From a virus, in the IMG/VR virus record IMGVR_UViG_3300036862_000053, positions 1 to 23,318 of that record: a DNA stretch of 23,318 bases; one strand, written 5' to 3'. The position numbers were made by a program, and so were the translations under genes. The notes below the pieces were generated by a model that was given only the letters and a program-made list of their open reading frames with translations, was not told where the DNA came from and ran no database searches. This document shows positions 1 through 18,440 of the stretch, piece by piece (the first letter of the stretch is position 1; each line of letters begins with the position of its first letter).

Positions 1-753
1 GGCATCCACTGTGGTGACGAGGTAGGAGTAGAAGGCTTGGCCTGCGGTGAGGGTGGTGGTGACGCCGGTGATGTTGGTGTTGGTCGCGGAGGTGCCGAAG
101 GTGATCGGCAGCATGGTCCAGTTGGTAGGGGCGATGAGGGTGAGGACGTAGGGCTGGTAGGACGGATGGCAGAAGATCATCTGGTTGACGTTCTGCGCGA
201 ACTTAAGCTGACGCAGGTCGGCTGAGATGTAAGGGGAGGAGATGGTGTAGACACGCTGGGTGTTGGTCGGGAGAGAGAATGGGTTGTTGGTAATGGCCAC
301 GCCGAAGAGGTCGGTTAGGGAATAGTTGTTGGCGGTGGCGTTTTGTATGATGTAGTATTTGTTCCCGGCGAAGATCCAGTCGTTGTTGAGATAGCCGTGG
401 CCGTTGGAGGTGAAGATGGTTGGGGAGCCGACTGCGGCAGCGGTGATGACTTTGGCGGTCTCGAGGACTGGGGCGCCATCAAAGTAGAACCGGATGTATT
501 GGTCGCCGAACTCCATCATGTAGCCGACGGAGAAGGATGCTTGGAAGGGGATCAGGCGGACAGCGGTGGCGGATTTGTAGCACTGGAGGACGTATTTGGT
601 GCCGGGCCGGGTGGAGGCACCGCCGCGATAGTCGACGAACCAGTTCTCAAGTAGCGCGGCGCCGGACTTGTACTTCTGGAGGTCAACACGGGCGAAGAGC
701 TTCGGGGACCATTCACCGGCATTGAGGGAGGCTTGGATTACAACGTCGCTCAT
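1..753 (-). CDS. Phage tail protein with FCCH-like domain, N-terminal part (partial)
   Basis: The first 251 codons of a gene that runs off the left edge of the window. The N-terminus (about residues 5-50) has the pattern NAGEWSPKLFARVDL, then LENW and STRPGTKYV. This opening is typical of a large podovirus tail protein often annotated as containing a ubiquitin-activating-enzyme E1 FCCH domain. A segment around residues 105-130, with SNGHGYLNNDWI, fits that small beta-barrel fold. A later stretch, QNVNQMIFCHPSYQPYVLT, is another landmark of the family. The start ATG at 753 overlaps the TGA of the upstream tail tubular gene (ATGA), so translation is probably coupled. By context it is a structural tail-tube or nozzle-associated component, although its precise position in the tail is not known to me. 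The family call is from recognition; no alignment was run. Confidence 0.85.
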   Translation of the reverse strand, partial: MSDVVIQASLNAGEWSPKLFARVDLQKYKSGAALLENWFVDYRGGASTRPGTKYVLQCYKSATAVRLIPFQASFSVGYMMEFGDQYIRFYFDGAPVLETAKVITAAAVGSPTIFTSNGHGYLNNDWIFAGNKYYIIQNATANNYSLTDLFGVAITNNPFSLPTNTQRVYTISSPYISADLRQLKFAQNVNQMIFCHPSYQPYVLTLIAPTNWTMLPITFGTSATNTNITGVTTTLTAGQAFYSYLVTTVDA

Positions 754-1838
754 GCAAAGCTAGGCCACAGGCCTCCCCAGTCGAAGCTAGAATAGGGGCC
801 AGAGACCATGCCTTCGGTGTAGGCGATGCCACGGATGCGGATCCAATCCGGGGTCACATCGTTGATGGTGAGGCCCTCGTTGCCATCGGGGGTGCGAGCG
901 AGTTCAATGGCGTCGTTGGTTTGCTTGATGAGATCATTGGCGAAGTTACGATCGCCACGCAGGGCCATTGCGAGTTGGCCAGCAACGAGATTGATGAGGG
1001 CGGATTGGAACAGGGTGTCCCAAACATTGGGATTGGTGACTTGGCGGACATATTGCAGGGTGGCGAATTCTTGGTTGGTGAGAATGACGCGCTGCTCACC
1101 CTTGGGGCCAAAGGTCAGGGTGAAGGTGGCCCCGGTGCCCGAGCCAGTGGTGGAACTCTGTGCTATAGTCCCAGTCTGCGGCGCAAAATAGGACCCTCCC
1201 TGCGGGGTAGCCGAGCCCGCAATCTGATTGACCACAGCGACAGTCCCCACAACTCCGGCGGGGGCAGTGAGGACTGTGAGTTGAACTGGAGCACCGATTG
1301 GTGCACTGGTGGTCGGCCCGAGTGGGAGGGTGATGATGTCGCCAACAGCGTAGCCAGTACCACCAGCCACAACCGCGGCCGCAGTGACGGGGTAGAATTC
1401 ATCGATGTGGACCTTGAAATTGATGGGAGGGCCTCGCCAGAAGGCAGAGGAGCCGCCGGTGACTGCGGTGGTGATGGGGACACCGCCGGAGAAGCCGGTT
1501 TGGTTGGCGGGGATTATGAGTTGGGCGCGGAGACAGTCGACGGGGTATTGGTATTCGTAGGCCCACGGAGGTGCGGGCTGACCCGGTTGCCAGAGGGTGG
1601 TGGCAGCGGAGGTGTTCTCAGGGGTGCCAGGGACTGAGGTGATGTAGGTGAGGTTGGCGGTTTTGAGGGCACAGTTCCACGGGGCCATTCGCAGGAGGTC
1701 ATCACGGGAGTTGGTGTAGATGATGTTGAATTGAATGGCCTCGTTGGAGGTTTGGTTGGCAAGTTCGGCATCAGTCACGGCTGTCCGCGTGCCGATTGTT
1801 TGTAGGGATCGGTTGCAGATGTCCGTGACTGATGTCAT
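750..1838 (-). CDS. Tail tubular protein A (T7 gp11-like) with an inserted domain
   Basis: 362 residues. The N-terminus (MTSVTDICNRSLQTIGTR, then NIIYTNSRDDLLRMAPWNCA) and the C-terminal helices (about 255-345, with LQYVRQVTNP and LINLVAGQLAMAL) match the T7 gp11-type tubular protein A family, which forms the adaptor ring between portal and tail nozzle. T7 gp11 is about 196 residues. The extra length here lies mainly at about residues 150-245, a Gly/Thr-rich beta segment opening with GGTGYAVGDIITL and closing with TGSGTGATFTLTF, which looks like an inserted surface domain. The start ATG directly follows the TAA of the 51-residue gene upstream (TAAATG), and the stop overlaps the next tail gene. 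Residue landmarks are seen directly; the ring-forming role is family knowledge. Confidence 0.85.
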   Translation of the reverse strand: MTSVTDICNRSLQTIGTRTAVTDAELANQTSNEAIQFNIIYTNSRDDLLRMAPWNCALKTANLTYITSVPGTPENTSAATTLWQPGQPAPPWAYEYQYPVDCLRAQLIIPANQTGFSGGVPITTAVTGGSSAFWRGPPINFKVHIDEFYPVTAAAVVAGGTGYAVGDIITLPLGPTTSAPIGAPVQLTVLTAPAGVVGTVAVVNQIAGSATPQGGSYFAPQTGTIAQSSTTGSGTGATFTLTFGPKGEQRVILTNQEFATLQYVRQVTNPNVWDTLFQSALINLVAGQLAMALRGDRNFANDLIKQTNDAIELARTPDGNEGLTINDVTPDWIRIRGIAYTEGMVSGPYSSFDWGGLWPSFA

Positions 1839-2649: not shown

Positions 2650-3015
2650 CTAACCTCCATTGGGTTTCGATAGCTGACGGGTGTGGTCGTAACGATTGCC
2701 GGGCCGTTCAGCCATATCCCGGCGGACCTGTTCGAAGACCCCACCATCGCAATGGAGGTCATCGAGGATGTGACGGAAGCGATCGGCACAGCGTTCCATT
2801 TCTCGTTCGATGTGGCTGGGACATGGAATACCAAGGGAGACGTATTCGCCCTTGATGTGAACTACGTCATGGAAGTAGTTGGCAAAGCGACGCATCTTCT
2901 CAGGGACTTCGCTTTCGGCATCCCGAACGGCGCAGATCAACTCAGTCGATTGCTGCCGAATGAGTTTTAGCTCGTCCGCGATGCGCTTGAGGAGGTTGTT
3001 GGTTTCATCATTCAT
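2650..3015 (-). CDS. Hypothetical protein with N-terminal coiled coil (121 aa)
   Basis: 121 residues. The N-terminal 35 residues (MNDETNNLLKRIADELKLIR and following) have heptad-like hydrophobic spacing and probably form a coiled coil. The middle, around residues 40-100, is helical with three Cys and several His. The start overlaps the stop of the tailspike-like gene upstream (ATGA). No signal peptide or membrane span. Sitting directly after the spike, it could be an assembly partner, but I do not recognise a family and sequence alone gives no function. Confidence 0.7.
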   Translation of the reverse strand: MNDETNNLLKRIADELKLIRQQSTELICAVRDAESEVPEKMRRFANYFHDVVHIKGEYVSLGIPCPSHIEREMERCADRFRHILDDLHCDGGVFEQVRRDMAERPGNRYDHTRQLSKPNGG

Positions 3016-4856
3016 GGTTGCACAAACGATGGGTTAAATCGGGCGAAGTTGGTAATGGGGGTGCTGGTGCTGGCGCCGCTGGGTTGGCCATTGTTGATGA
3101 GGTGGGTGTAACCTGAACCGGCCCAGATCATCCCCATGGTGGTGTTGCCGATGATGTTCTCAGAGCCGAGGGTGACGACACCGTCGCAGGTGCCGCCACT
3201 AGCACAGCCTTGGGAGTTGATGTTCAAGAGGAAGGTCTGGAGGTTGTTGCCATCATTGGGGATGTTTACGAAGATGCAGAACTGGTTGATGTTCTCGCAG
3301 TGGACATTTTGCACATTGGCAGCACCGCCGAGGAGTTGCAGTCCGCCTTGGCCCTGCGGGGTGAGGCTACTGGGGCCGCCGAGGACGAGGTCCCTAAGGG
3401 AGATAATGGAGGAGCCAAAATTCATGCCGCTGGCGGTGGTGTTGCCGATCTTGACCATGACATTGTTGGGGCTGCCTTGATTGATGCTGACCTTTTCAGC
3501 CCCAACATAGGAAGAGCCGCCATAACCCTTTTCGAAGTCAAAGCCTCCACGCTGACCGGAATAGATATAGATCCTGTACAACCCACCGAAGTCTTGAAGG
3601 TTGTTGGAGTAGATCATGAAGGAGTTGGAGGCGACTGGGACGGATCGGCTGGCGTGGAATGAGAGATCTCGATAAGAGGAGCCAAGACAGGCAAAGCCCC
3701 AAACGGGATCACAGATTGTAAAGGCTTGAAGGGATCCGTTGTATGCATCACAGAGATGGAACATGGATGATCCAGGCTCAGAGGCACCGGAGATGGTGAC
3801 GCCTTCGCCTGAGACCAGTGGGGAGGAGCCGCAGACCATGTAGGAGCCGGAGGGGACCTCTAGCTTCCCACCCCAATAGCCGCCGGAGTCGAACGACAGG
3901 GAGGATCGAAGGCTGGCGACGTAGTTGAATGCCCCACGCACACAGGTATCGTTGTTGGTCGCCGAAGCATCAGTGCCGTTGTAATCGCCGATGCAGCCGA
4001 ATTGTTTGATGTTCGGCCAGTTGTCGGCCATGTATTGGAAGTGGTTTCCGGCGCTGTCGGTGAAGCTGGCTTGTGGAGTGGAGACCGCGGTTACGGTGAT
4101 GGTGGGTTGGACTGAGCAGCCAGTGAAGGCGCCACCTGCGGTGAGGACATCACCAACGCTATAGCCATTGCCGGGGGTGTTGGTGATGTTGACCGCGGTC
4201 AGGACGTTGCCGGAGACCGTGGCGGTGCCCACGGCGATGTTGGGGTTGCCAGATTTGTTCCAGATGATCGCGGTGGTGCTGATGGAGCCGCTTGGGGCGC
4301 CATAGGTGCCATTGGTGCAGCCAGTGCCGCCTTGAATGGAAAAGGTGGTGATGTAGGAATCGAGGAAGGCGGCTGAGCCGACGTTGCGGAAGATGGCACC
4401 ACCACCTACGTTGTTGCCATAGTCGAGGGTTTTGACGTAGGTGAAGCCGGTGAGATTGAGAGCCGCCGCGGCGGTGCGTGTGGGGAAGACAATGGTGGTG
4501 CCACTGCCACCGGCGCTGACACAGGTGAAGCCAGTGCCAGAGGTCCATTGAAGGCTTTGACCGGCGGCCGAGCATGAAGGGACCGAGAGGCTGGTTTCGG
4601 TGGTACCATTCACTGAGCCGATGACGGTGTTGGCGGAGAAGGGGATGCCACCGAGGGCACCGCCGTTGTTGTATTGGACTTGGCCATTGGAGCCACCGGC
4701 GGCGCCGAGGAAGGCCGAGGGGTTGGTTGGACGAGGGATGTTGCTGGAGCCGGTGATGTTGCCACAGACAGTGTTGTTGGCGAAGACGCCATTGCATTGA
4801 GCGGACGCAGCCGCAGGGGCCAACAGCAGAGCGAGCGCGAGAAGGAAACGTTTCAT
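3012..4856 (-). CDS. Tailspike-like protein, pectate-lyase-type beta-helix, with signal peptide
   Basis: 614 residues from the ATG at 4856, which overlaps the stop of the upstream gene (ATGA). The frame stays open far upstream, but that extension overlaps other coding genes and looks non-coding. Residues 1-19 are a clear Sec signal peptide (MKR, long Leu/Ala core, ASA before Gln20). Residues 21-120 are Gly/Asn/Thr-rich with paired cysteines. About 225-255 holds a GYSVGDVLT motif like that in tail tubular protein A. From about 283 (NIKQFGCIGDYNGTDASAT, then KLEVPSGSYMVCG and VTISGASEPGSSMF) it follows the pectate-lyase-superfamily N-cap seen in phage tailspikes that cleave polysaccharide. Sixteen cysteines, an even number, fit disulfide formation in the periplasm. 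Enzyme activity is inferred; catalytic residues are not identifiable by eye. Confidence 0.8.
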   Translation of the reverse strand: MKRFLLALALLLAPAAASAQCNGVFANNTVCGNITGSSNIPRPTNPSAFLGAAGGSNGQVQYNNGGALGGIPFSANTVIGSVNGTTETSLSVPSCSAAGQSLQWTSGTGFTCVSAGGSGTTIVFPTRTAAAALNLTGFTYVKTLDYGNNVGGGAIFRNVGSAAFLDSYITTFSIQGGTGCTNGTYGAPSGSISTTAIIWNKSGNPNIAVGTATVSGNVLTAVNITNTPGNGYSVGDVLTAGGAFTGCSVQPTITVTAVSTPQASFTDSAGNHFQYMADNWPNIKQFGCIGDYNGTDASATNNDTCVRGAFNYVASLRSSLSFDSGGYWGGKLEVPSGSYMVCGSSPLVSGEGVTISGASEPGSSMFHLCDAYNGSLQAFTICDPVWGFACLGSSYRDLSFHASRSVPVASNSFMIYSNNLQDFGGLYRIYIYSGQRGGFDFEKGYGGSSYVGAEKVSINQGSPNNVMVKIGNTTASGMNFGSSIISLRDLVLGGPSSLTPQGQGGLQLLGGAANVQNVHCENINQFCIFVNIPNDGNNLQTFLLNINSQGCASGGTCDGVVTLGSENIIGNTTMGMIWAGSGYTHLINNGQPSGASTSTPITNFARFNPSFVQP

Positions 4857-5278
4857 TGCAGGAGTGTCCATCCACCGGTTTCGAGGATTGGTTTGAGGAT
4901 GATTGAGCCGAAGGAAGAAGCGAGTTGGACCGAGGCGAGACTGGAGATTAGCTCGCTGCCAAAGGGGACGATGTTGTAGGTGTTGAGGCTGGCAAAGCCA
5001 CCGATGTCGACGATGGTCACGGGGTTGAGGATCCACTGACCGGGGATCGCTTGAGGGCCAGCGATGGACGCGCGCGAGGATGGAAGGTTGATGGTCACAT
5101 TGGCATTGGCATTGATGGTGATAAGGGTGGTGCCCCGTTGGATGGTGTAGGTGCCGGTAGAGATGATCGGGAGCACCGCCGCCTGAGGCACATACTGCCA
5201 CCCAACACTGGGGCCCAAATAGACCCGTTCCAGTTGGCGGAAGGTCCCGCCCTGATCCAGATCCAGTTGGCTGCTCAT
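4853..5278 (-). CDS. Predicted small fibre or baseplate-like beta protein (141 aa)
   Basis: 141 residues, no signal peptide and no cysteine, in contrast to its neighbours. It starts MSSQLDLDQGGTFRQLERVY and continues with alternating hydrophobic and polar residues suggesting beta-strands (TYTIQRGTTLITINANANV, then NPVTIVDIGGF), ending in ILETGGWTLLQ. The start overlaps the stop of the 64-residue gene (ATGA) and its own stop overlaps the tailspike start. Position between small tail genes and the spike suggests an adaptor or minor fibre protein. I do not recognise a named family. Confidence 0.7.
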   Translation of the reverse strand: MSSQLDLDQGGTFRQLERVYLGPSVGWQYVPQAAVLPIISTGTYTIQRGTTLITINANANVTINLPSSRASIAGPQAIPGQWILNPVTIVDIGGFASLNTYNIVPFGSELISSLASVQLASSFGSIILKPILETGGWTLLQ

Positions 5279-5469
5279 AGAGTCCCTCGCTTGTATTCGC
5301 CCGAGGGGGCATGGAGCTTGAATCGCTTGTCCATCTCGGTCTTTGTTGCGGCGTCCTGTGGGACCTGCCAGACGTTGAGGTCTTTGGTGGCGACGGTGAC
5401 GATGGTGCCTTCAGGGACATAGCGACGGTCGCTGTCGAAGTGCGCGGCGAGGAGTTTGACAATGGGCAT
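5275..5469 (-). CDS. Small hypothetical protein (64 aa)
   Basis: 64 residues beginning MPIVKLLAAHFDSDRRYVPE and ending in Lys/Arg-rich GEYKRGTL. Its ATG overlaps the TAA of the 185-residue gene (TAATG) and its TGA overlaps the following ATG. The segment VPEGTIVTVATKDLNVWQV looks like a short beta-barrel or SH3-like strand pair. No membrane segment. Unrecognised; it is supported mainly by exact operon coupling on both sides. Confidence 0.7.
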   Translation of the reverse strand: MPIVKLLAAHFDSDRRYVPEGTIVTVATKDLNVWQVPQDAATKTEMDKRFKLHAPSGEYKRGTL

Positions 5470-6026
5470 TAGGCCCTCCGAACGCTAGAAGTGGGACCGG
5501 CGGGCTTGTTCTCGATCAGGGCCTTGAGCGCGGCCAGTTCGGCCTTCAGCGATTCCAGTTCGCTGGCGGGGACTGAGGCATTGGCCTGCGGTAGGGAGGC
5601 ACCAATTTGCTTGGCGAATCCTTCCATCATCTTCTCCATGAACTGCTGCTCGGCTGAGGTCATGCCGCCGTTGGTGGGCAGGGTGTCGATGGGGTGTTCC
5701 CATTTGTGGCGCAGGGATGCAGTAAGGGCTTCGGCCGCTTCGTTCAGGGGCTCCATCTCAGGGGTGGGCTCGCCGACGAAGATGTAGTCGTTGCGTTCAT
5801 TGCGGGCGCCGTCGACCGCAAGGGCCACAATGATCTCACCGGGGTAGTTGTAGTCGGCCGGGTCGTTGGGATCGAGGAGCATGGGGACGGGGTAGAGCTT
5901 GCGGACGGATCGGCCGTTGGCACGATTGGTTTCCTTGTGCTCCCATTCGACCACGGTGCCGTCGGGGAGGGCAGGGACTTTGAGATAGTGGCCGGTGATT
6001 AGACGCCAGCGAGGGGCTTCAGTCAT
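5469..6026 (-). CDS. Hypothetical protein with C-terminal coiled coil (185 aa)
   Basis: 185 residues from the ATG at 6026, chosen because an AGGAG lies 8 bases upstream; a longer frame reaches 6056 without a better start. Residues 1-80 form a beta-rich domain (RWRLITGHYLKVPALPDGTV, VVEWEHKE, KLYPVPMLLDPNDPADY). Residues 145-180 are a Leu/Ala/Glu-rich coiled coil (SELESLKAELAALKALIE). No signal peptide and no cysteine. It lies between a signal-peptide fibre and small tail genes. A trimerising minor structural or chaperone role is conceivable, but no family is recognised. Confidence 0.7.
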   Translation of the reverse strand: MTEAPRWRLITGHYLKVPALPDGTVVEWEHKETNRANGRSVRKLYPVPMLLDPNDPADYNYPGEIIVALAVDGARNERNDYIFVGEPTPEMEPLNEAAEALTASLRHKWEHPIDTLPTNGGMTSAEQQFMEKMMEGFAKQIGASLPQANASVPASELESLKAELAALKALIENKPAGPTSSVRRA

Positions 6027-6036
6027 AGTAGTCTCC

Positions 6037-7743
6037 TTACATTCGTAGGGTTGCACTTAGGTTGTTCTGGTTGTTGTTGTCGAAGGTGACAGTGGTGGTG
6101 CCATCGGCTGCCTCATTGGCGGAGATGATGTTGAGGCCGAGAGCAGGGGTGAAGCTGGCAGTATGGGCAGCGCCGAAGACAGTGATGGCGGCGGTCGCGG
6201 CGAAGGCGAAGGTACGGCCAGCGGAGAAGACAGTGGTGGTGTTGAAGCCGACGCCGAAGAGACCAGCAGAGCCAGCGGTGGCGGTGGTGTTGATTTGGCC
6301 TATCATGGTAGTGGAGAGGCCATCCTCGACTAAGCCAGAGACGAAGCTGATTTGGTTGCCAGCGGAGGCCCGGGCTTGGCGAATGGTGGCACTGCTGTAT
6401 TGGTAGCCAGAGCCACTATCGGTGACGATGGTGGAGACGTTGACGCGGTTGTAACGATTCCAAACGCCAAAGGACGCAGCCGATCCCCCTGAGGCACTAC
6501 CACCATAGATCCAATCGAAGGTCGCGGTGCCGTTGGAGCAGGCAGTACCAACATAGGTGCCTCGAGAGGCGGCGGGGCCATTGGTGATTGAGGCATTGTT
6601 GAGGTCGATGCCATTGACACGGGTAAGGGCGGTGCCAGCCGATCGGGCGGCGGTGCTGGTCCACGCAGGGCCACGGGTGAGGGTTGGGGTTCCAGAGTTG
6701 GACCAAACAAAGTAGTCGTAGCAGGAGTTGTTGGCGACGGCCGCAGGGCCAGCGTTGCCAGTGGCGGAGTTGGCGTTGATATTGGAGAGTTCGGTGATGG
6801 CAGTGGGGGTGAAGTTGGTGCCGTCGTAGATTGGGATTAGGTTGCCGACGTAGAGGGCGTAGAAGACGGTGCCTGCGGCCGAGACGGTGGAGGTGAGCAC
6901 GGGGGTCGCGGTGGTTAGGGTCAGGCGGCCTTGTGGGGTGATGGTGGTATTGAGCCGGGCGTTGGGGAGGATGCCTGAGGTGAGATTGGCGGCACTGCCC
7001 GCAGTGAATGTGTTTGCGGTGCAAGCGGTGCAGGTGCCTGTGAGGTTAGTGATTACGCCAGACACCGGAGTGCCCAGGGCCGGGCCGACGAATACAGGAG
7101 AGGAAAGAGTTGGAGCTATGTTGAAGACAAGGAGATTACTCCCGGTCTTGTCGGTCATGGCACTTAGGAGATTGGCACTGGATGGGGTGGCGGCCCAAGT
7201 GGCAACGCCGGTACCGAGGCCAGTGATGGAGCCAATCGCTGGGGTGATGGTGATGGCGGTTAGGGTTGTGACCCGACCCTTGGTGTCGATGGTTACGGCC
7301 GGGGCTTGAGTGGCGGAGCCAATGGGACCAGCCCCGAGGCCGATGGCTGTGAGGGTGGGGTTAGGATAGGTGCCGGTGAGATCGCCGCCTGCGGGGCCAG
7401 ATGGCACAGCCGAGGGCACTGCCCCGTTGACGAATAGGCCTTCGGCGTTGATGGTGCCAGCGCCCTGTGCACCGCCAGTGGCATTACCGACTACGTGGCC
7501 TGTGGGGGAGAAGGTGAAGAGCTTTGTGGCTGCACTGGTGCTGCCTTGGAGGAAGCGAAAGGACTCGACGACGGAGCCAGCGGTGTTGTAGAGGGAGACA
7601 TCATTGCGGCCGGTGGCATTGAGGGCAGCGCCAAAGATGGCGGAACTGCCTTGACGCATCTGCACGTCGTTGATGTTTGGCTGCTGCGCGTATGCGGGCG
7701 TGAGGGCGAGTGCAAGCGCAAGAGCGAGCTTAGAATATCGCAT
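6037..7743 (-). CDS. Tail-fibre-like protein with signal peptide
   Basis: 568 residues, low-complexity in Gly, Ala, Thr, Ser and Asn. Residues 1-19 are a Sec signal peptide (MRYSK, Leu/Ala core, AYA before Gln20). Residues 119-130 contain GGDLTGTYPNPT, a motif repeated in phage collar and tail-fibre proteins. A following stretch (about 190-230, with NLLSAMTDKTGSNLLVFN and PALGTP) is also typical of fibres. The remaining 300 residues look like beta-rich receptor-binding or carbohydrate-recognition domains. Four cysteines, an even number. The start overlaps the end of the preceding gene by 14 bases. Fibre identity is from motif recognition. The signal peptide is odd for a virion fibre, which normally assembles in the cytoplasm. 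Confidence 0.8.
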   Translation of the reverse strand: MRYSKLALALALALTPAYAQQPNINDVQMRQGSSAIFGAALNATGRNDVSLYNTAGSVVESFRFLQGSTSAATKLFTFSPTGHVVGNATGGAQGAGTINAEGLFVNGAVPSAVPSGPAGGDLTGTYPNPTLTAIGLGAGPIGSATQAPAVTIDTKGRVTTLTAITITPAIGSITGLGTGVATWAATPSSANLLSAMTDKTGSNLLVFNIAPTLSSPVFVGPALGTPVSGVITNLTGTCTACTANTFTAGSAANLTSGILPNARLNTTITPQGRLTLTTATPVLTSTVSAAGTVFYALYVGNLIPIYDGTNFTPTAITELSNINANSATGNAGPAAVANNSCYDYFVWSNSGTPTLTRGPAWTSTAARSAGTALTRVNGIDLNNASITNGPAASRGTYVGTACSNGTATFDWIYGGSASGGSAASFGVWNRYNRVNVSTIVTDSGSGYQYSSATIRQARASAGNQISFVSGLVEDGLSTTMIGQINTTATAGSAGLFGVGFNTTTVFSAGRTFAFAATAAITVFGAAHTASFTPALGLNIISANEAADGTTTVTFDNNNQNNLSATLRM

Positions 7744-8134
7744 AGCCCAAGCTCCCAGGGGCGTTGGCAGTGGAGATGGTTACGCAGAGATCGGCGGACT
7801 GAGGGACCACAAGGACTGCTCCGTAGCCATTACCGAGGCTGAGGGTTTGACCAGCGGCGAAGGTCATTGCGCCTGTGAGGTTTGTGGTGCCGGTGGCACA
7901 ATTGGTGCCGGTGCCAGCTGAGAAGGTCACAACGGATGTGGCAACCGGGATCATGTTCAGGGCAGTGACGTAGATGGATTTGCCCGCGATGCCGTTGATG
8001 ATGCGGAGGGCCGTGGTGGTCGTGGCAGCGATTGGGGTAGTGCCCATGGTGGCAGGGGTGAAGACTGACTGCTGTGCCGAGGCAGCGGTGAGGATGCCTG
8101 TGGTCAGCAACAATGCTAGAAGGAAGTGTTTCAT
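7730..8134 (-). CDS. Small exported protein, beta-rich (134 aa)
   Basis: 134 residues. Residues 1-20 are a Sec signal peptide (MKHFLLALLLTTGILTAASA, cleaved before QQ). The mature part is beta-rich, with a motif like SIYVTALNMIPVATSVVTFS, then a Cys at GTNC and a second Cys at ADLC that could form one disulfide. No membrane anchor after cleavage. Its ATG overlaps the TGA of a small frame upstream (ATGA) and its end overlaps the fibre start by 14 bases. Its size and fold style suggest a small periplasmic or cell-surface beta-sandwich. Similar proteins appear in phage regions of soil alphaproteobacteria as I recall, without a defined function. Confidence 0.75.
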   Translation of the reverse strand: MKHFLLALLLTTGILTAASAQQSVFTPATMGTTPIAATTTTALRIINGIAGKSIYVTALNMIPVATSVVTFSAGTGTNCATGTTNLTGAMTFAAGQTLSLGNGYGAVLVVPQSADLCVTISTANAPGSLGYAIF

Positions 8135-8310
8135 CGATGCACCCTCATGATTCGAATTTCACGGTTCAGTGGGAACAGGTTGGCTCCAAGGGAGACGAAA
8201 GCGAGGTTGCCATTGCGCAGGCCATAGAGGACGAATTGATCGGCCATAATGGCACTGGCGCCGAGCGACGTGCCAATCACCAACAATGCGACCCGCAGCA
8301 ATACACCCAA
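8131..8310 (-). CDS. Small membrane-anchored frame overlapping the Wzy-like gene end
   Basis: A reading frame ending VSLGANLFPLNREIRIMRVH plus Arg, whose stop overlaps the next ATG (ATGA), as with true genes of this operon. In its upstream part it encodes a hydrophobic helix (LGVLLRVALLVIGTSLGASA), while the Wzy-like frame over the same bases becomes Arg/Trp/His-rich and looks non-coding. The start is unclear. TTG at 8310 would include the helix; GTG at 8280 or ATG at 8247 (38 residues) are alternatives, and none has a clear Shine-Dalgarno. It is either a separate small protein translated by re-initiation or the true C-terminus of the Wzy-like protein after a +1 frame change near 8320-8335. 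Confidence 0.55.
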   Translation of the reverse strand: MGVLLRVALLVIGTSLGASAIMADQFVLYGLRNGNLAFVSLGANLFPLNREIRIMRVHR

Positions 8311-9250
8311 GGAATGCAATGATTGGGCAGTAGAGGGGAAAGTAGAAGAGTGAGAGGGTGGTAAGGCCCACGAAGGTCGGGTGCCAATGGGAGTCGATGC
8401 GGGTGAGGCAGAGGAGGTAGATGGCATAGATGGGCAGGGCACCGATGCCGAGTTCGAACCAGAGTTGGAGGAAGTCATTGTGTGCAAATCCCGGGTGGAT
8501 GAGGGCGATGGCATGGGGGTAGTGCTCGGTCGGGTTGAAGTAGAAGTAGGTGGTGAAGCTGCCGATGCCGTGGCCCCAAAGGTTGAGTTGGCGCAGGGTG
8601 ATGCCCCAGTTCATCAATCGGAGGATGTCGGTGGAAGAGGGGTTGATGGACATGATGGCGATGGCAATGATGGCGCAGGGGATCGCGATGTACCACCGGG
8701 TCATGCGGGAGAGGAGGACGATACCGAGGACGAAGAAGCCGCCGCGGGAGCCACTGAAGATCAGTCCTGCTATTGGGCCAAGGGACCACAGGTAGAGGCT
8801 GTGGGACCAGAGGGCGATGATAACGAGGGCACAGATCGCACTGAGTACAGTCGGGTTATAGAACAACCCCGATGGCCGCTCAAGGAACGGGACCCCTTGG
8901 AAGCCGAAGACTTGGGCGAGGGCGATGGCCGCATTGACCGACAAGCCGAGGGCGAGGCCCTTCAACAGGGGATCAAAGTCGAGGATGGTGGAGCCCATCC
9001 AAAAGGCGAGGCCGCAGATCGACAGGAGCCAGAAGCCATAGAGCCCATCGTAGCCATTAGGCACCCACAGGAGGGAAATGGCGGACCAAGCCAACACGGC
9101 TAGGCCCGCCCAGTATGCTGGTCCAAAGGCACCTTCGCGCCAGAGGCTCAGGGGGAGGACGATGGAGAAGAGGGCCCATTGCGTCGGGATCATTGCCCCG
9201 AGGACACCGGGGATGAAACAGATCGGCGCAATGAGACCTAGGAGGAACAT
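8159..9250 (-). CDS. O-antigen ligase/polymerase-like membrane protein (Wzy_C family)
   Basis: 363 residues from the ATG at 9250, whose start overlaps the upstream stop (TAATG). It is highly hydrophobic, with roughly ten membrane helices. Two landmarks identify the Wzy_C/O-antigen ligase family. One is SGSRGGFFVLGIVLL (about 166-180). The other is a long loop with GHGIGSFTTYFY, then HPGFAHNDFLQLWFELG (about 252-268), where Arg and His residues are important in family members. Such enzymes polymerise or transfer lipid-linked glycan on the periplasmic face of the inner membrane. In a phage this would alter host surface polysaccharide. The last 40 residues are Arg/Trp-rich and probably not the native end (see the overlapping frame). 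Whether it is a ligase or a polymerase cannot be told. Confidence 0.8.
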   Translation of the reverse strand: MFLLGLIAPICFIPGVLGAMIPTQWALFSIVLPLSLWREGAFGPAYWAGLAVLAWSAISLLWVPNGYDGLYGFWLLSICGLAFWMGSTILDFDPLLKGLALGLSVNAAIALAQVFGFQGVPFLERPSGLFYNPTVLSAICALVIIALWSHSLYLWSLGPIAGLIFSGSRGGFFVLGIVLLSRMTRWYIAIPCAIIAIAIMSINPSSTDILRLMNWGITLRQLNLWGHGIGSFTTYFYFNPTEHYPHAIALIHPGFAHNDFLQLWFELGIGALPIYAIYLLCLTRIDSHWHPTFVGLTTLSLFYFPLYCPIIAFLGCIAAGRIVGDWHVARRQCHYGRSIRPLWPAQWQPRFRLPWSQPVPTEP

Positions 9251-9690
9251 TAGCTGATGCTCATGCAGTGATAGGAGACTTTGTTGGTGGAGGTGGTGGG
9301 TTGGACCAAGGCGATCGAGCCAGTGGTCACTGTGTAAGATATAGCAGTGGTGGGTAGGCCTGCTTGCCATGTGACCACACAGTTGGGGGCGGTGACGTAG
9401 GCTTGGCCGAAGGTGATGGTGGCAGTGGTGGCGCTGGCTCCCATTGTGACTGTACCAGCGGTGTCAGTTCCAGCGACCGACGGTGTGCCGGTTCCTGCAA
9501 CTGTTGGAGGAGGACGCCCCGCACCCGTTGAGAGAATGTGTCCGGGAAAGTACACTCCGTTGTTGGTATCAACGGAGAACGCTCCTGTGGTGTCTTGAGA
9601 GAGTTGAAGGGCACGGGTGATGGTCTGGGCAATGGCGGCACCGAATCCTAAGAGGAGGATCAATGCCGAAGGGAGGAGGTATTTGCGCAT
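9250..9690 (-). CDS. Small exported beta protein (146 aa)
   Basis: 146 residues from the ATG at 9690. Residues 1-21 are a Sec signal peptide (MRKYLLPSALILLLGFGAAI, then AQ). The C-terminal half (about 85-145) carries a TATITFGQAYVTAPNCVVTW motif and ends near KVSYHCMSIS, with two cysteines that may pair. This 'FG-AY-APxCVVTW ... SYHC' pattern recurs at the C-termini of exported or fibre proteins in alphaproteobacterial phage regions, as I recall. A longer in-frame start at 9720 would add ten residues that mask the signal peptide and overlap the gene upstream, so it is rejected. The stop overlaps the ATG of the Wzy-like gene. Confidence 0.75.
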   Translation of the reverse strand: MRKYLLPSALILLLGFGAAIAQTITRALQLSQDTTGAFSVDTNNGVYFPGHILSTGAGRPPPTVAGTGTPSVAGTDTAGTVTMGASATTATITFGQAYVTAPNCVVTWQAGLPTTAISYTVTTGSIALVQPTTSTNKVSYHCMSIS

Positions 9691-9701
9691 CTGTGGGTTC
9701 C

Positions 9702-10202
9702 TTATCTGATCACATACCATGTGGTGTTGGCACGGTTGAAGACAACTTCTTTACAGGTGACCGCGCCAAGGTTGTTTAATGATACCGTGGTGTTTAAGGT
9801 CTGACCGGTGCTGGTGGTCATAGCAATGGTCGTGGTAGCAAAGGCAGAGCCAGTCACATTGCAGAACCCAGCCTTCGCACCATCCGGCACCGGGTTCGGT
9901 GGGAGGGTGAAGGTAGTGGAAGCCAACGGTTGGGTGGTGATCAGAGCGAGACCGCCAAAGCGCAGGGATGCTAGGGAACCAGTGCCAAAGGTCAGGGCAC
10001 CGGTGAGGGCACCCTGCACTTTAGCAATGGAGTTGCGAACGGTGTTGGAACAGAGATAGGACCCTGGACCTCCGGGGCCTTGACCTGCATTCCAACATTC
10101 ATTGCCGGTGATGTCATCTTGGATGACGGTTTGGGCAAGCAAGGTGAGTGGGACGGCGAGTAGCCCCACTCCCACTGCGGCCCCAAGGAGCCATTTGCGC
10201 AT
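9702..10202 (-). CDS. Exported protein of unknown function (166 aa)
   Basis: 166 residues, start ATG at 10202 with AGGGAG upstream. Residues 1-23 are a Sec signal peptide (MRKWLLGAAVGVGLLAVPLT, then LLAQ). The mature protein has four cysteines (NECWN, YLCSN, GFCNV, VTCKE) that could form two disulfides, and Thr/Ser-rich beta strands ending NRANTTWYVIR. It is the first gene after the capsid cement gene, 12 bases apart, so it is expressed with the capsid genes. No known family; by composition it resembles a small adhesin or receptor-mimicking beta protein, which is inference. Confidence 0.75.
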   Translation of the reverse strand: MRKWLLGAAVGVGLLAVPLTLLAQTVIQDDITGNECWNAGQGPGGPGSYLCSNTVRNSIAKVQGALTGALTFGTGSLASLRFGGLALITTQPLASTTFTLPPNPVPDGAKAGFCNVTGSAFATTTIAMTTSTGQTLNTTVSLNNLGAVTCKEVVFNRANTTWYVIR

Positions 10203-10214
10203 GCTGGGGCTCCC

Positions 10215-10751
10215 TTAGTTGGCGACGGTGATACCGGCGGGATAGCCGCCCATCACCGAGTTGTCTGTGCCTTTGTAAGGCTGGTCGTCGCGGTCAAGGA
10301 CGATGAACGAGGAGACGTTCCCTGCGGTCATGGTGGCAGCGCCGACGGTGTATAAGAGGCGCAGGAAGCGGGGGATGGCAATGCCGTCCGGTGGGCGAGG
10401 CATGTCCATATCCAGCAACCTCGAGCCCGCGTTGAGGGTGGCGAGGGCATAGGCAGGGGATGCGTACCAGCTGCTGAATGCCGCTGGGGCTCCGGTGCCG
10501 TCGTCCACTGCGCCTTGGAGGGTGACAGAGAGGGTACCGGCACCGCCCGAGGTGAAGGTCGTGGTCACAAGGACCAAGAGCTTCATGGCCGGGTCGTCGC
10601 CGATGCCGATGTCTCGGGCACCGCCGCCATTGGCAGAGGAGGGGATGCCTGAGGTGACACCGAGGTCGATGACGTTCGTGGAGGCTTGGGTGCCCGCAGC
10701 GATCGCCAAGGAGACGGCGTTGTCGAACTGGAGGAGTGCGTCGAGAATCAT
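10215..10751 (-). CDS. Capsid cement protein, Bbp16-like
   Basis: 178 residues from the ATG at 10751, chosen for its AGGAG 10 bases upstream; a longer frame to 10859 overlaps the coat gene and is non-coding in character. The opening MILDALLQFDNAVSLA, followed by ASTNVIDLG and a Gly-rich loop with ARDIGIGDDPAMKLLV, matches my memory of the Bbp16 family. In Bordetella phage BPP-1 that protein decorates and stabilises the capsid on top of the Bbp17 coat shell. The middle is a beta-rich TFTSGGAGTLSVTLQGAVDD segment. It lies 13 bases after the coat protein gene, the usual arrangement. Family assignment is by recognition of motifs and context. Confidence 0.8.
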   Translation of the reverse strand: MILDALLQFDNAVSLAIAAGTQASTNVIDLGVTSGIPSSANGGGARDIGIGDDPAMKLLVLVTTTFTSGGAGTLSVTLQGAVDDGTGAPAAFSSWYASPAYALATLNAGSRLLDMDMPRPPDGIAIPRFLRLLYTVGAATMTAGNVSSFIVLDRDDQPYKGTDNSVMGGYPAGITVAN

Positions 10752-10764
10752 GGGGTGGCTCCTA

Positions 10765-11808
10765 TCAAGTAACCTGCGCTTCGTTGCTGAGAATGGCATC
10801 GCAGGTGCGAACGGGGATGCCGCGGAAGGTGGTGACGACTTTGCCGTTGAACTCTTCAAGGCGAAGCAAGACGTTGGTCTTGTTCATCGCTTGGAGGTCG
10901 AGGTAGGTTCGGATGATGCGGTTGCAGTAGATGTGCACTGCACCCATGTTGGCACGGACCGCGGGGGTGTCTGAGGTCTGGATGGCGGTGGCCATCGAGG
11001 GGGCGGTGGGCAGGCGATAGAGAGCGCGGACGATCAGGTTGATCAGGTTCGCCGCGCTGACACCGGTCAACTGCGTCACATCGATGTTGGCGATGCGGGC
11101 AGTGTAGCGCCAGTCGCGGAGGCAGAGACCGACTTCCCATTTGAAGTGATCGCGGTAGGCTTGGTAGGTGTTGCCCGACGCATCCTGCACTGGCCACTCA
11201 CCCATGTCCCGGTGCTGGAGGCCGGTGATTTTGTTCTTGGGGAAGATGCCGTGGATGGTGTCCGAGCCCCAAGTGACGACCCACATGGAGGTGTTGGTGG
11301 AGGCAGTGCCGCCGCCGTCGAGGACGTTCGCAGCGGTTTGGCTGGACGCCGCGGTGAGGGTGGAGTAGCGAGGGGCCAAGCCGGTGAAGCGTTCCGGGTT
11401 GATGTGCTGGTTGCCGTAGATGAAGGTCGAGGCGACCTGCTGGGACATGCCCTGGAGGAAGGCACGGACTTCGGAGAGGCGGAACTCAGCGGTGTTGCCA
11501 TTCAGGTCCGCAATGTCCTTGTCGATCACTGCGTAGGTTTCGAGGTTGCCGCAGGTGTCGACGATTTGTGCAGTGGTGGACTTCGCGTTGGGGACACCGG
11601 CATTGAGTAGGCGCCAAGTGGCTTGGGGGAGTCCCGTGCGGACGGTGGTTTTGTGTCCGGTGGGGAGGTTGCCTTCCATGACGAGGATGTCATCGAGGAT
11701 TTCGTTCGTTTGGGAGAGGAGTTCGATGATGTGGGCTACGCGGTAGCCGTCATCCATCCTCTTCGCCCAATCGGCGTAGGTTAGTGCGACGTTGCCAATA
11801 GTGGCCAT
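10765..11808 (-). CDS. Major capsid (coat) protein, epsilon15 gp7 / BPP-1 Bbp17-like
   Basis: 347 residues from ATG 11808, preferred over an in-frame start at 11823 because GGAG lies 8-9 bases upstream and the context is TAATG-like. N-terminal landmarks are LTYADWAKRMD, then LSQTNEILDDILVMEGNLPT and GHKTTVRTGLPQATWRLLN, a signature I associate with the GP7/Bbp17 coat proteins of epsilon15 and BPP-1 (HK97 fold). Length agrees with the family (about 330-350). It follows the scaffold gene and precedes the cement gene, as expected for the capsid cassette. A 12-bp inverted repeat ends two bases ahead of its Shine-Dalgarno and may raise its expression. Confidence 0.9.
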   Translation of the reverse strand: MATIGNVALTYADWAKRMDDGYRVAHIIELLSQTNEILDDILVMEGNLPTGHKTTVRTGLPQATWRLLNAGVPNAKSTTAQIVDTCGNLETYAVIDKDIADLNGNTAEFRLSEVRAFLQGMSQQVASTFIYGNQHINPERFTGLAPRYSTLTAASSQTAANVLDGGGTASTNTSMWVVTWGSDTIHGIFPKNKITGLQHRDMGEWPVQDASGNTYQAYRDHFKWEVGLCLRDWRYTARIANIDVTQLTGVSAANLINLIVRALYRLPTAPSMATAIQTSDTPAVRANMGAVHIYCNRIIRTYLDLQAMNKTNVLLRLEEFNGKVVTTFRGIPVRTCDAILSNEAQVT

Positions 11809-17427: not shown

Positions 17428-18075
17428 TCACAAACGGCGGAAGGGGGACGCCACCAAGCGCTCACGGGCCGGAGGTGATGCCATGTCGCTTGGTGGCGAT
17501 TGAGGCCCAGCGTGGGACGAGGCCTCAATGGTGCGGACGGATGCGGAGCGCTTGCGGGCGGCTTCGAGGGAGGCCGCGAAGTCGACATTGACATTGACGT
17601 TCTTGTTGACCTTGCCATAGCCAGTGCGGTCGAGGCCGAGTTCGGCGATGCCGAGGAGATCGCGGGTGGGGAGGAATTCGTTCTCTTCGGCTGCCTTGTC
17701 AAGCTTGTCCGAGAGCATTGCCTGTGCTTTGAGGGCGTTGGTGCGCATGTAGTCGATCACGGGGTCGGCCGCGGCGATGAATTCGGCCGTGACCACACCA
17801 CGGTAGTGAGCAACGAGTTCTTTGAACGCGGGGTCGTAGGTGAGTTGGCGGACTCCGGCGTAGGAGCGACCACAGAGTTCGGCGACCTCTTTGAGGGGCA
17901 GGCCTGCGGCCACTGCACGCGCGACCCGGTGGTGGGTGTCACGAAGGACTTGGATGGTTTGCAGAGGGCCACGCTTTTCGGTCAGGTGGACAAGATCGGC
18001 ACGCGACAGCGAGCGGAGGTTTGAGACCTCTGCGATTTGGGTGTGCTGTCGACCGTGGCCGAGACGGGGTTTCAC
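17428..18075 (-). CDS. Terminase small subunit (predicted)
   Basis: 215 residues with a GTG start at 18075; AAGGAG lies 7-10 bases upstream and the start overlaps the TAG of the nuclease gene (TAGTG). Residues 50-80 fit a helix-turn-helix (VARAVAAGLPLKEVAELCGR, then SYAGVRQLTYDP), as expected for the DNA-recognition domain. Residues 95-165 are helical and could form the oligomerisation ring. The last 40 residues are Ser/Pro/Arg-rich. It is followed by the large subunit after 15 bases. In the family, this protein binds the packaging site and regulates the motor. Identity rests on HTH plus position. Confidence 0.85.
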   Translation of the reverse strand: MKPRLGHGRQHTQIAEVSNLRSLSRADLVHLTEKRGPLQTIQVLRDTHHRVARAVAAGLPLKEVAELCGRSYAGVRQLTYDPAFKELVAHYRGVVTAEFIAAADPVIDYMRTNALKAQAMLSDKLDKAAEENEFLPTRDLLGIAELGLDRTGYGKVNKNVNVNVDFAASLEAARKRSASVRTIEASSHAGPQSPPSDMASPPARERLVASPFRRL

Positions 18076-18440
18076 TAGAGTCTCCTTACGAATCCACTGG
18101 GGCGCTGGGTGATGACATAGGCCTCAGGGACCTCGATCATGGTTGGGGGTTTGAGCTTCACGTTGTAGTAGGGGCGATACAATGCAATCATTGCTCGTTC
18201 GACCTCATCGAGATCTTCCACACGACATGGAAGCACATGCACCTCATCGAAGAGCATCCCCTTGACCATCGCTTGCATCCACGCTGGGGCCTTCTGGCGC
18301 CTGCCCCACATCGACCGATGGGACTCGATCCGCGTCAACGGCTTCTTCGCTTGACCGATGTAGACGATCTTCCCCTCGCGAAGCAGTGCATAGATCCCAC
18401 ATCGCAACACCGCCGAGACATCAATAAATCCTTCCAACAT
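18075..18440 (-). CDS. GIY-YIG nuclease-domain protein
   Basis: 121 residues from the ATG at 18440; a GTG at 18455 would add five. The core has CGIYALLREGKIVYIGQAKK (about 14-33), giving the GIY and YIG motifs with usual spacing, then ESHR with the catalytic-type Arg region, and EVERAMIALYRPYYNVKLKP carrying the conserved Glu, Pro and Asn. No DNA-binding domain is attached, so it is a single-domain form. It heads the packaging operon, directly downstream of the promoter. It could be a free-standing homing nuclease, an accessory nuclease for DNA packaging or a host-DNA degrader. Domain assignment is firm, role is inference. Confidence 0.85.
   Translation of the reverse strand: MLEGFIDVSAVLRCGIYALLREGKIVYIGQAKKPLTRIESHRSMWGRRQKAPAWMQAMVKGMLFDEVHVLPCRVEDLDEVERAMIALYRPYYNVKLKPPTMIEVPEAYVITQRPSGFVRRL

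Follow-up and report, generated by a model that had tools for sequence, protein, structure and literature searches.

Export signals and paired cysteines in a gene cassette within the virion operon of a BPP-1/epsilon15-like podovirus

Textbook tailed phages make their adhesins in the reducing cytoplasm, and we know of no tailed phage that folds its host-binding parts outside it. The DNA analysed here, an IMG/VR virus record of 23,318 bases (the window), carries a podovirus late operon on the minus strand, in which five genes (SP1 to SP5, Table 1) encode proteins that begin as exported proteins do. The question was whether these export signatures are genuine, and what exported proteins would be doing among the virion genes of a tailed phage.

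A cassette inserted into the virion operon

The late operon runs from terminase through portal (phrog_332), scaffold/protease, major capsid protein (MCP, phrog_212), a cement-type protein (phrog_427) and a long cassette to tail tubular protein A (TTA, phrog_394) and TTB (phrog_376). By MCP, the closest cultured phages were podoviruses of the BPP-1, BcepC6B and phiV10/epsilon15 types, at 47-54% identity. Shine-Dalgarno sequences were clear for SP1 to SP4, and SP5 starts in a 4-bp overlap with the preceding gene.

Table 1. Features of the cassette and of the flanking virion genes, in operon order
Feature	Position	Strand	Description
Major capsid protein, phrog_212	10765..11808	-	profile family assignment
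Cement/decoration-type gene, phrog_427	10215..10751	-	5' boundary of cassette
SP1	9702..10202	-	166 aa; predicted Sec signal aa 1-23 (10134-10202); Cys 36/51/114/150
SP2	9250..9690	-	146 aa; predicted Sec signal aa 1-21 (9628-9690); two Cys
Wzy_C-superfamily multi-span membrane protein	8159..9250	-	O-antigen ligase/polymerase superfamily; optional gene
SP3	7730..8134	-	134 aa; predicted Sec signal aa 1-20 (8075-8134); Cys 79/117
SP4	6037..7743	-	568 aa; predicted Sec signal aa 1-19 (7687-7743); 4 Cys
185-aa cassette protein, conserved, signal-less	5469..6026	-	49 loci, 0 signals
64-aa small ORF	5275..5469	-	no homologue found in relatives
Putative adaptor, type A	4853..5278	-	141 aa; no signal, no Cys; stop overlapped by SP5 start
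SP5, candidate receptor-binding spike	3012..4856	-	614 aa; predicted Sec signal aa 1-19 (4800-4856); 16 Cys
SP5 mature anchor QCNGVF...C	about aa 20-70	-	variable body beyond anchor
Small conserved signal-less protein, downstream of SP5	2650..3015	-	3' part of cassette
Tail tubular protein A, phrog_394	750..1838	-	3' boundary of cassette

The portal, MCP, cement, TTA and TTB homologues of the window lie in the order common to the BPP-1 and epsilon15-phiV10 type (Rauchvirus, Uetakevirus, BcepC6B), which places the phage among them. The conventional layout, with TTA within about 1 kb of cement and the fibre gene last in the late operon, was not found in the window. In BPP-1, BcepC6B and phiV10, TTA begins within about 1.3 kb of MCP, cement and a further one or two small genes standing between them with no large insertion, and the fibre gene follows the internal virion proteins at the operon end; the gap between MCP and TTA was instead 8.9 kb in the window and 3.3-9.9 kb in 30 relatives. 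In the window's BPP-1/epsilon15-like clade, the cassette is an insertion of 3-10 kb that separates the cement gene from those of the tail tube. Candidate stretches from IMG/VR were searched with the MCP, which matched 572 of them (the group, which is large and uncultured, comprising at least this number of contig stretches), and 80 loci were taken for analysis. The preliminary description had proposed a search for the same gene order in other phages; the signal-bearing cassette recurred among these relatives and is not confined to one contig. One relative sits in a Terriglobia MAG, on a 36-kb contig that looks wholly phage.

Signals were rare where the cassette is absent: none was found in the 96 virion-region coding sequences of six annotated relatives, and among 29 conventional loci, taken from genomes of Pseudomonas and Gastranaerophilales, two of the 245 genes downstream of MCP had one. 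When nine cassette and late proteins of one complete genome with the cassette (G405) were scanned with profiles, the sole fibre match was a signal-bearing protein of 1003 residues at the SP5 position; the endolysin gene follows directly after the large internal protein. Five further complete genomes gave similar gene lists, as judged from N-termini. One locus (L082) has an extra signal-less fibre-like gene, and another (L065) has an HNH gene at the SP5 position, with SP5 not found in that locus.

Export signals and cysteine pairs

Signals were scored by a rule-based detector that looked for a positive n-region, an uncharged hydrophobic h-region and an AxA-type c-region. The five Sec signal peptides of the preliminary description were all present, since the detector called a Sec/SPase I signal in 5/5 SP genes and in 0/18 of the other genes of the window. 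Cleavage was predicted at LLA|QT, AIA|QT, ASA|QQ, AYA|QQ and ASA|QC for SP1 to SP5; the last of these was set by the invariant Gln of the SP5 homologues, the detector's top-scoring site lying two residues earlier. Mature proteins beginning with Gln or Thr had been expected, and Gln is what stands at this position in all five, Thr in none. Gln occupied +1 at 105 of 146 predicted sites across the loci, and it was also common in the Terriglobia MAG (13/19), the sole bacterial comparison. The Bacteroidetes Q-rule (PMC5837995) was rejected as the reason for this residue, because Shine-Dalgarno sequences are strong and GC is 50-62%.

The signals were a property of families. Within the 80 loci they were found in every SP1 (33/33) and SP2 (33/33), in 23/25 members of a second family at the SP1 position and in 21/26 SP3 proteins; none was called in cement (0/75), the 185-residue family (0/49), adaptor type A (0/18) or adaptor type B (0/21). 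Overall, 202 of 548 cassette genes were positive, against 11 of 551 genes outside the cassette and 12 of 1678 antisense ORFs, although the loci are related and a p-value on these counts would not be independent. Several of the 11 positives outside the cassette, encoded towards the opposite end of the late region, look like true export substrates. One mature motif, QFGxCLPxxC, stood behind a Sec signal in one locus (L011) and behind Tat-type (twin-arginine) signals in two others (L019 and L026), with one match to Pfam TAT_signal.

The cysteines gave a second line of evidence. A recount agreed with the preliminary description that SP1 to SP5 hold 4, 2, 2, 4 and 16 cysteines, all even, and that the signal-less neighbours of 141 and 185 residues hold none; the cysteines of SP1 to SP5 all fall within the mature part, and the Wzy-like membrane protein has 8. 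Parity was then compared across the loci, using proteins with any cysteine after removal of sequences more than 70% identical. An even mature number was found in 124 of 134 signal-bearing proteins (binomial p 4e-26) versus 84 of 189 signal-less ones, and cysteine density per 100 residues was 1.76 versus 0.72-0.82. The p-value is overstated because homologous proteins are not fully independent, but paired cysteine changes are free of that weakness. In the SP1 alignment, cysteines at columns 42 and 58 occurred together in 5/5 cases and were jointly absent in 19 (p 2e-5), and a cysteine at column 130 had a partner at 169 or 97 in all 14 rows. In SP2, two cysteines were invariant across 23 aligned homologues and a second pair was co-gained in relatives; cysteines at columns 85 and 115 co-occurred (p 7e-5). 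Even number and paired gain and loss are both what disulfide-bonded proteins would be expected to display, and they point to predicted disulfides in the mature proteins.

The interchange of Sec and Tat signals together with paired cysteine gain means that a structural or accidental hydrophobic N-terminus fails as an explanation. Export of the cassette proteins is well supported as real at the level of sequence. The family-wide signals, the parity, the co-gained pairs and the Sec/Tat interchange lend strong support to the earlier suggestion that they look made for the periplasm.

Fibre-like proteins and a candidate adaptor

The signal-bearing proteins across the loci matched Phage Tail Collar, Gly_rich_2, Laminin_G_3, SPRY, SASA esterase and right-handed beta-helix families, as well as tail fibre, tail collar, tail spike and pectin-lyase PHROGs. 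The C-terminal part of SP4 was 34% identical to the annotated tail spike of Pseudanabaena phage Pam5 (gp18) and 30% identical to gp20 of Agrobacterium phage Rivra; these two proteins share this domain with SP4 but have no signal peptide, and 0 and 1 cysteines. SP2 and SP4 gave weak unrelated matches only against PDB sequences. The model of SP1 had a mean pLDDT of 79 over the mature domain and about 90 from residue 61, and its fold matched CBA120 TSP4 (Z 10.4 over 97 residues, rmsd 2.5); the other matches listed included T4-type gp10 (Z 8.6-9.5), T4 gp9 (Z 8.0) and the Pa223 capsid spike (Z 8.2). The TSP4 match spans the larger part of mature SP1, which is thus modelled as a TSP4/gp10-type anchor, and a common fold shows no function. 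Matches of SP1 to uridine phosphorylase in the PDB sequence search were compositional, and were rejected because the modelled fold differs. The fibre nature of the predicted exported families is well supported.

SP5 showed the architecture of a tailspike or fibre, a conserved N-terminal anchor with exchangeable bodies: residues 14-71 were up to 86% identical between homologues, and the bodies beyond were unrelated between phages. SP5-position proteins of relatives matched tail collar and tail fibre families; SP5 of the window had no family match in the profile searches, and neither it nor adaptor type A had a match among PDB sequences. An AlphaFold2 model of SP5 built with 15 homologues had a mean pLDDT of 43 and was left out of cysteine distances and fold searches. 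A tblastn search of cultured phages with SP1, SP2, SP3, SP5, both adaptors and the type-B anchor gave no match. A likeness of the type-B anchor to the common tail-fibre motif GDNSTxIATTxFV found no confirmation on checking.

Of the 44 usable loci, 41 have a signal in the product of the gene that follows the putative adaptor; in the other 3 the N-terminus of this product is signal-like but has no K/R. Adaptor type A was paired with a QC[NS]G[VI]F anchor in 22/22 cases and type B with a CxxRP..NACA anchor in 22/22 (18 by pattern and 4 read by eye). This co-variation is the pattern expected of a docking pair, and linkage of adjacent genes could give the same.

In the window and in five relatives (L012, L017, L041, L042 and L067), the Wzy-like gene immediately follows that of SP2 or its homologue. 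PF04932 (Wzy_C) was found in 6 of 9 homologues, with a best E-value of 7.7e-9; the copy in the window (E 0.43) fell below the Pfam cut-off, and glycan polymerase/ligase activity is putative, assigned at the family level. The Wzy label of the preliminary description therefore holds for the family, but the gene is optional and so not central to the cassette. Seroconversion by epsilon15 is reportedly due to a phage-encoded Wzy. Like the phage-encoded Wzy of epsilon15 and D3 seroconversion (PMC4815439, PMC9241936), the protein of the window is a Wzy_C superfamily member in a phage genome; it differs in being encoded, by an optional gene, inside a virion operon, and in phages for which a search of ten relatives gave no integrase.

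Proposed docking at lysis, rival readings and known systems

The sequences themselves show export signals conserved by family, cysteines that are even in number and gained in pairs, anchors that carry exchanged bodies, adaptors that co-vary with the anchors, fibre domains and an insertion in the virion operon. With slightly better than even confidence, we propose that the cassette encodes adhesins, some receptor-binding and others accessory, which are exported, acquire disulfides and, once lysis brings them to the cytoplasmic virion, dock by their mature anchors. Among the three functions offered in the preliminary description, exported fibres attached at or after lysis fit best, because of the anchor with swapped bodies, the adaptor co-variation, the tail-collar, fibre and spike matches, the predicted tailspike-anchor fold of SP1 and the lack of any other fibre in the profile-scanned complete genome; the attachment itself we infer. 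Modular fibre- or spike-type adhesins would be exported by the host Sec, rarely Tat, system, the signal peptide would be removed to leave a new N-terminus that is mostly Gln, and disulfides would form in the periplasm. SP5 would be the main receptor-binding spike, and SP1 to SP4 accessory spikes, lectins or enzymes. Since virion assembly in Caudoviricetes is cytoplasmic, the exported proteins could meet the virions only at lysis, when breakage of the membranes by holin and endolysin would bring the two together; the conserved mature anchors would then dock on virion-side proteins, in the case of SP5 on the signal-less product of the gene just upstream. Finished P22 particles can acquire their tailspikes in vitro, and late docking is therefore physically plausible. 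The complete scheme of two-compartment assembly, in which capsid and tail are cytoplasmic and the receptor-binding proteins are periplasmic, oxidised and stored until cognate adaptor/anchor docking at lysis, is offered more tentatively, its chances falling a little under even.

The strongest competitor holds that the proteins are exported and never virion-bound, acting with the Wzy-like protein in the periplasm or on the outer surface, whether as decoys, as lectins that block receptors or as enzymes that modify the surface, to shut out superinfecting phages or keep progeny from sticking to debris. It explains the export signatures equally well, the SASA, LamG, SPRY and beta-helix domains and the optional Wzy_C protein beside SP2 fit surface remodelling, and fast turnover fits competition. 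We nevertheless consider it rather unlikely, given that the genes lie within the virion operon and vary in the manner of host-range modules, that anchor type tracks the signal-less neighbour, that the profile scan of G405 offered no other fibre, that SP1 is modelled with a virion-type anchor fold, and that no integrase was found in ten relatives. A related reading, lysogenic conversion, was set aside as unlikely because no tyrosine integrase, the type sought, was found in those ten relatives. The proteins might alternatively be depolymerases or adhesins secreted for folding and freed at lysis to strip exopolymer and help progeny diffuse, as the pectin-lyase, beta-helix and esterase domains of some bodies would allow; this is improbable, for it leaves the conserved anchors, the adaptor co-variation and the SP1 fold unexplained, and lysis would free cytoplasmic enzymes too, so that export would serve disulfide formation alone. 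Podoviruses do eject membrane-active proteins, and on that precedent the hydrophobic N-termini could be membrane- or virion-binding peptides kept in the particle. The AxA|Q sites with their frequent Gln at +1, the confinement of cysteine parity to signal-bearing proteins, the paired gain of cysteines and the use of Tat-type in place of Sec signals ahead of one mature motif make such retention highly improbable.

If docking of exported adhesins at lysis is true, host-range modules can be periplasmic products, the last step of virion assembly can be delayed until lysis, and fibre finders trained on proteins that lack signals may overlook or misfile such fibres. The adaptor/anchor code, type A with QCNGVF and type B with CxxRP..NACA, is directly testable. 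In the open-licence literature, judged by titles and abstracts, no description of signal-bearing tailed-phage fibres was found. The parts of the cassette are of known kinds and their combination is new; two-compartment assembly would, if shown, be new in kind.

Two other known systems are close. Modular tailspikes and fibres (T4 gp9/gp10, CBA120 TSP4, Phage Tail Collar) have a conserved anchor and swapped bodies as SP5 does, but the signal peptides and conserved even cysteines are features of the cassette. Filamentous phages have virion proteins with Sec signals (pIII and pVIII), pIII with disulfides, as proposed for the cassette; their virions, however, assemble in the membrane, whereas the phage of the window is of the tailed type assembled in the cytoplasm.

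Gene neighbours of SP2 and SP5

Homologues of SP2, a cassette protein with a predicted Sec signal, were followed directly by a Wzy_C-like membrane gene in the window (8159-9250), L012, L017, L041, L042, and L067, and this adjacency suggests some connection between the two. HNH-endonuclease-like genes were found as insertions directly 3' of the gene for the putative adaptor (L013:6940 and L065:9058); a search of L065 for the gene of the candidate spike SP5 found none. Upstream of the gene for the small terminase, a small gene (window 18075-18440) was conserved in 28 loci and, judged by eye, looks GIY-YIG-like.

Predicted signals by type and position

The mature motif QFGxCLPxxC was present in two of the four cassette proteins with twin-arginine type signals, and also behind a Sec signal in L011:7092-7940. 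An SP2 homologue lay between terminase and portal genes, outside the usual cassette (L209:3677).

Signal-bearing proteins in compared loci
Locus	Coordinates	Feature
L019	9879-10733	cassette, twin-arginine type
L026	4723-5589	cassette, twin-arginine type
L026	2699-3733	cassette, twin-arginine type
L036	6705-7550	cassette, twin-arginine type
L029	3092-5082	upstream of capsid gene, outside cassette
L037	3186-5144	upstream of capsid gene, outside cassette
L064	3003-4736	upstream of capsid gene, outside cassette
L068	1235-4562	upstream of capsid gene, outside cassette

Other phages and prophages

Gastranaerophilales prophages (L087, L091-L095, L097, L098, L100-L106, and L111) carried a single predicted exported protein of ~140 aa, whose gene lies in antisense orientation between those for portal and scaffold. 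In Pseudanabaena phage Pam5, two signal-bearing proteins (L137:9831-10298 and 10307-10636) were encoded directly after the tail spike gene, and because of this arrangement predicted exported proteins may lie next to spikes in other phages too.
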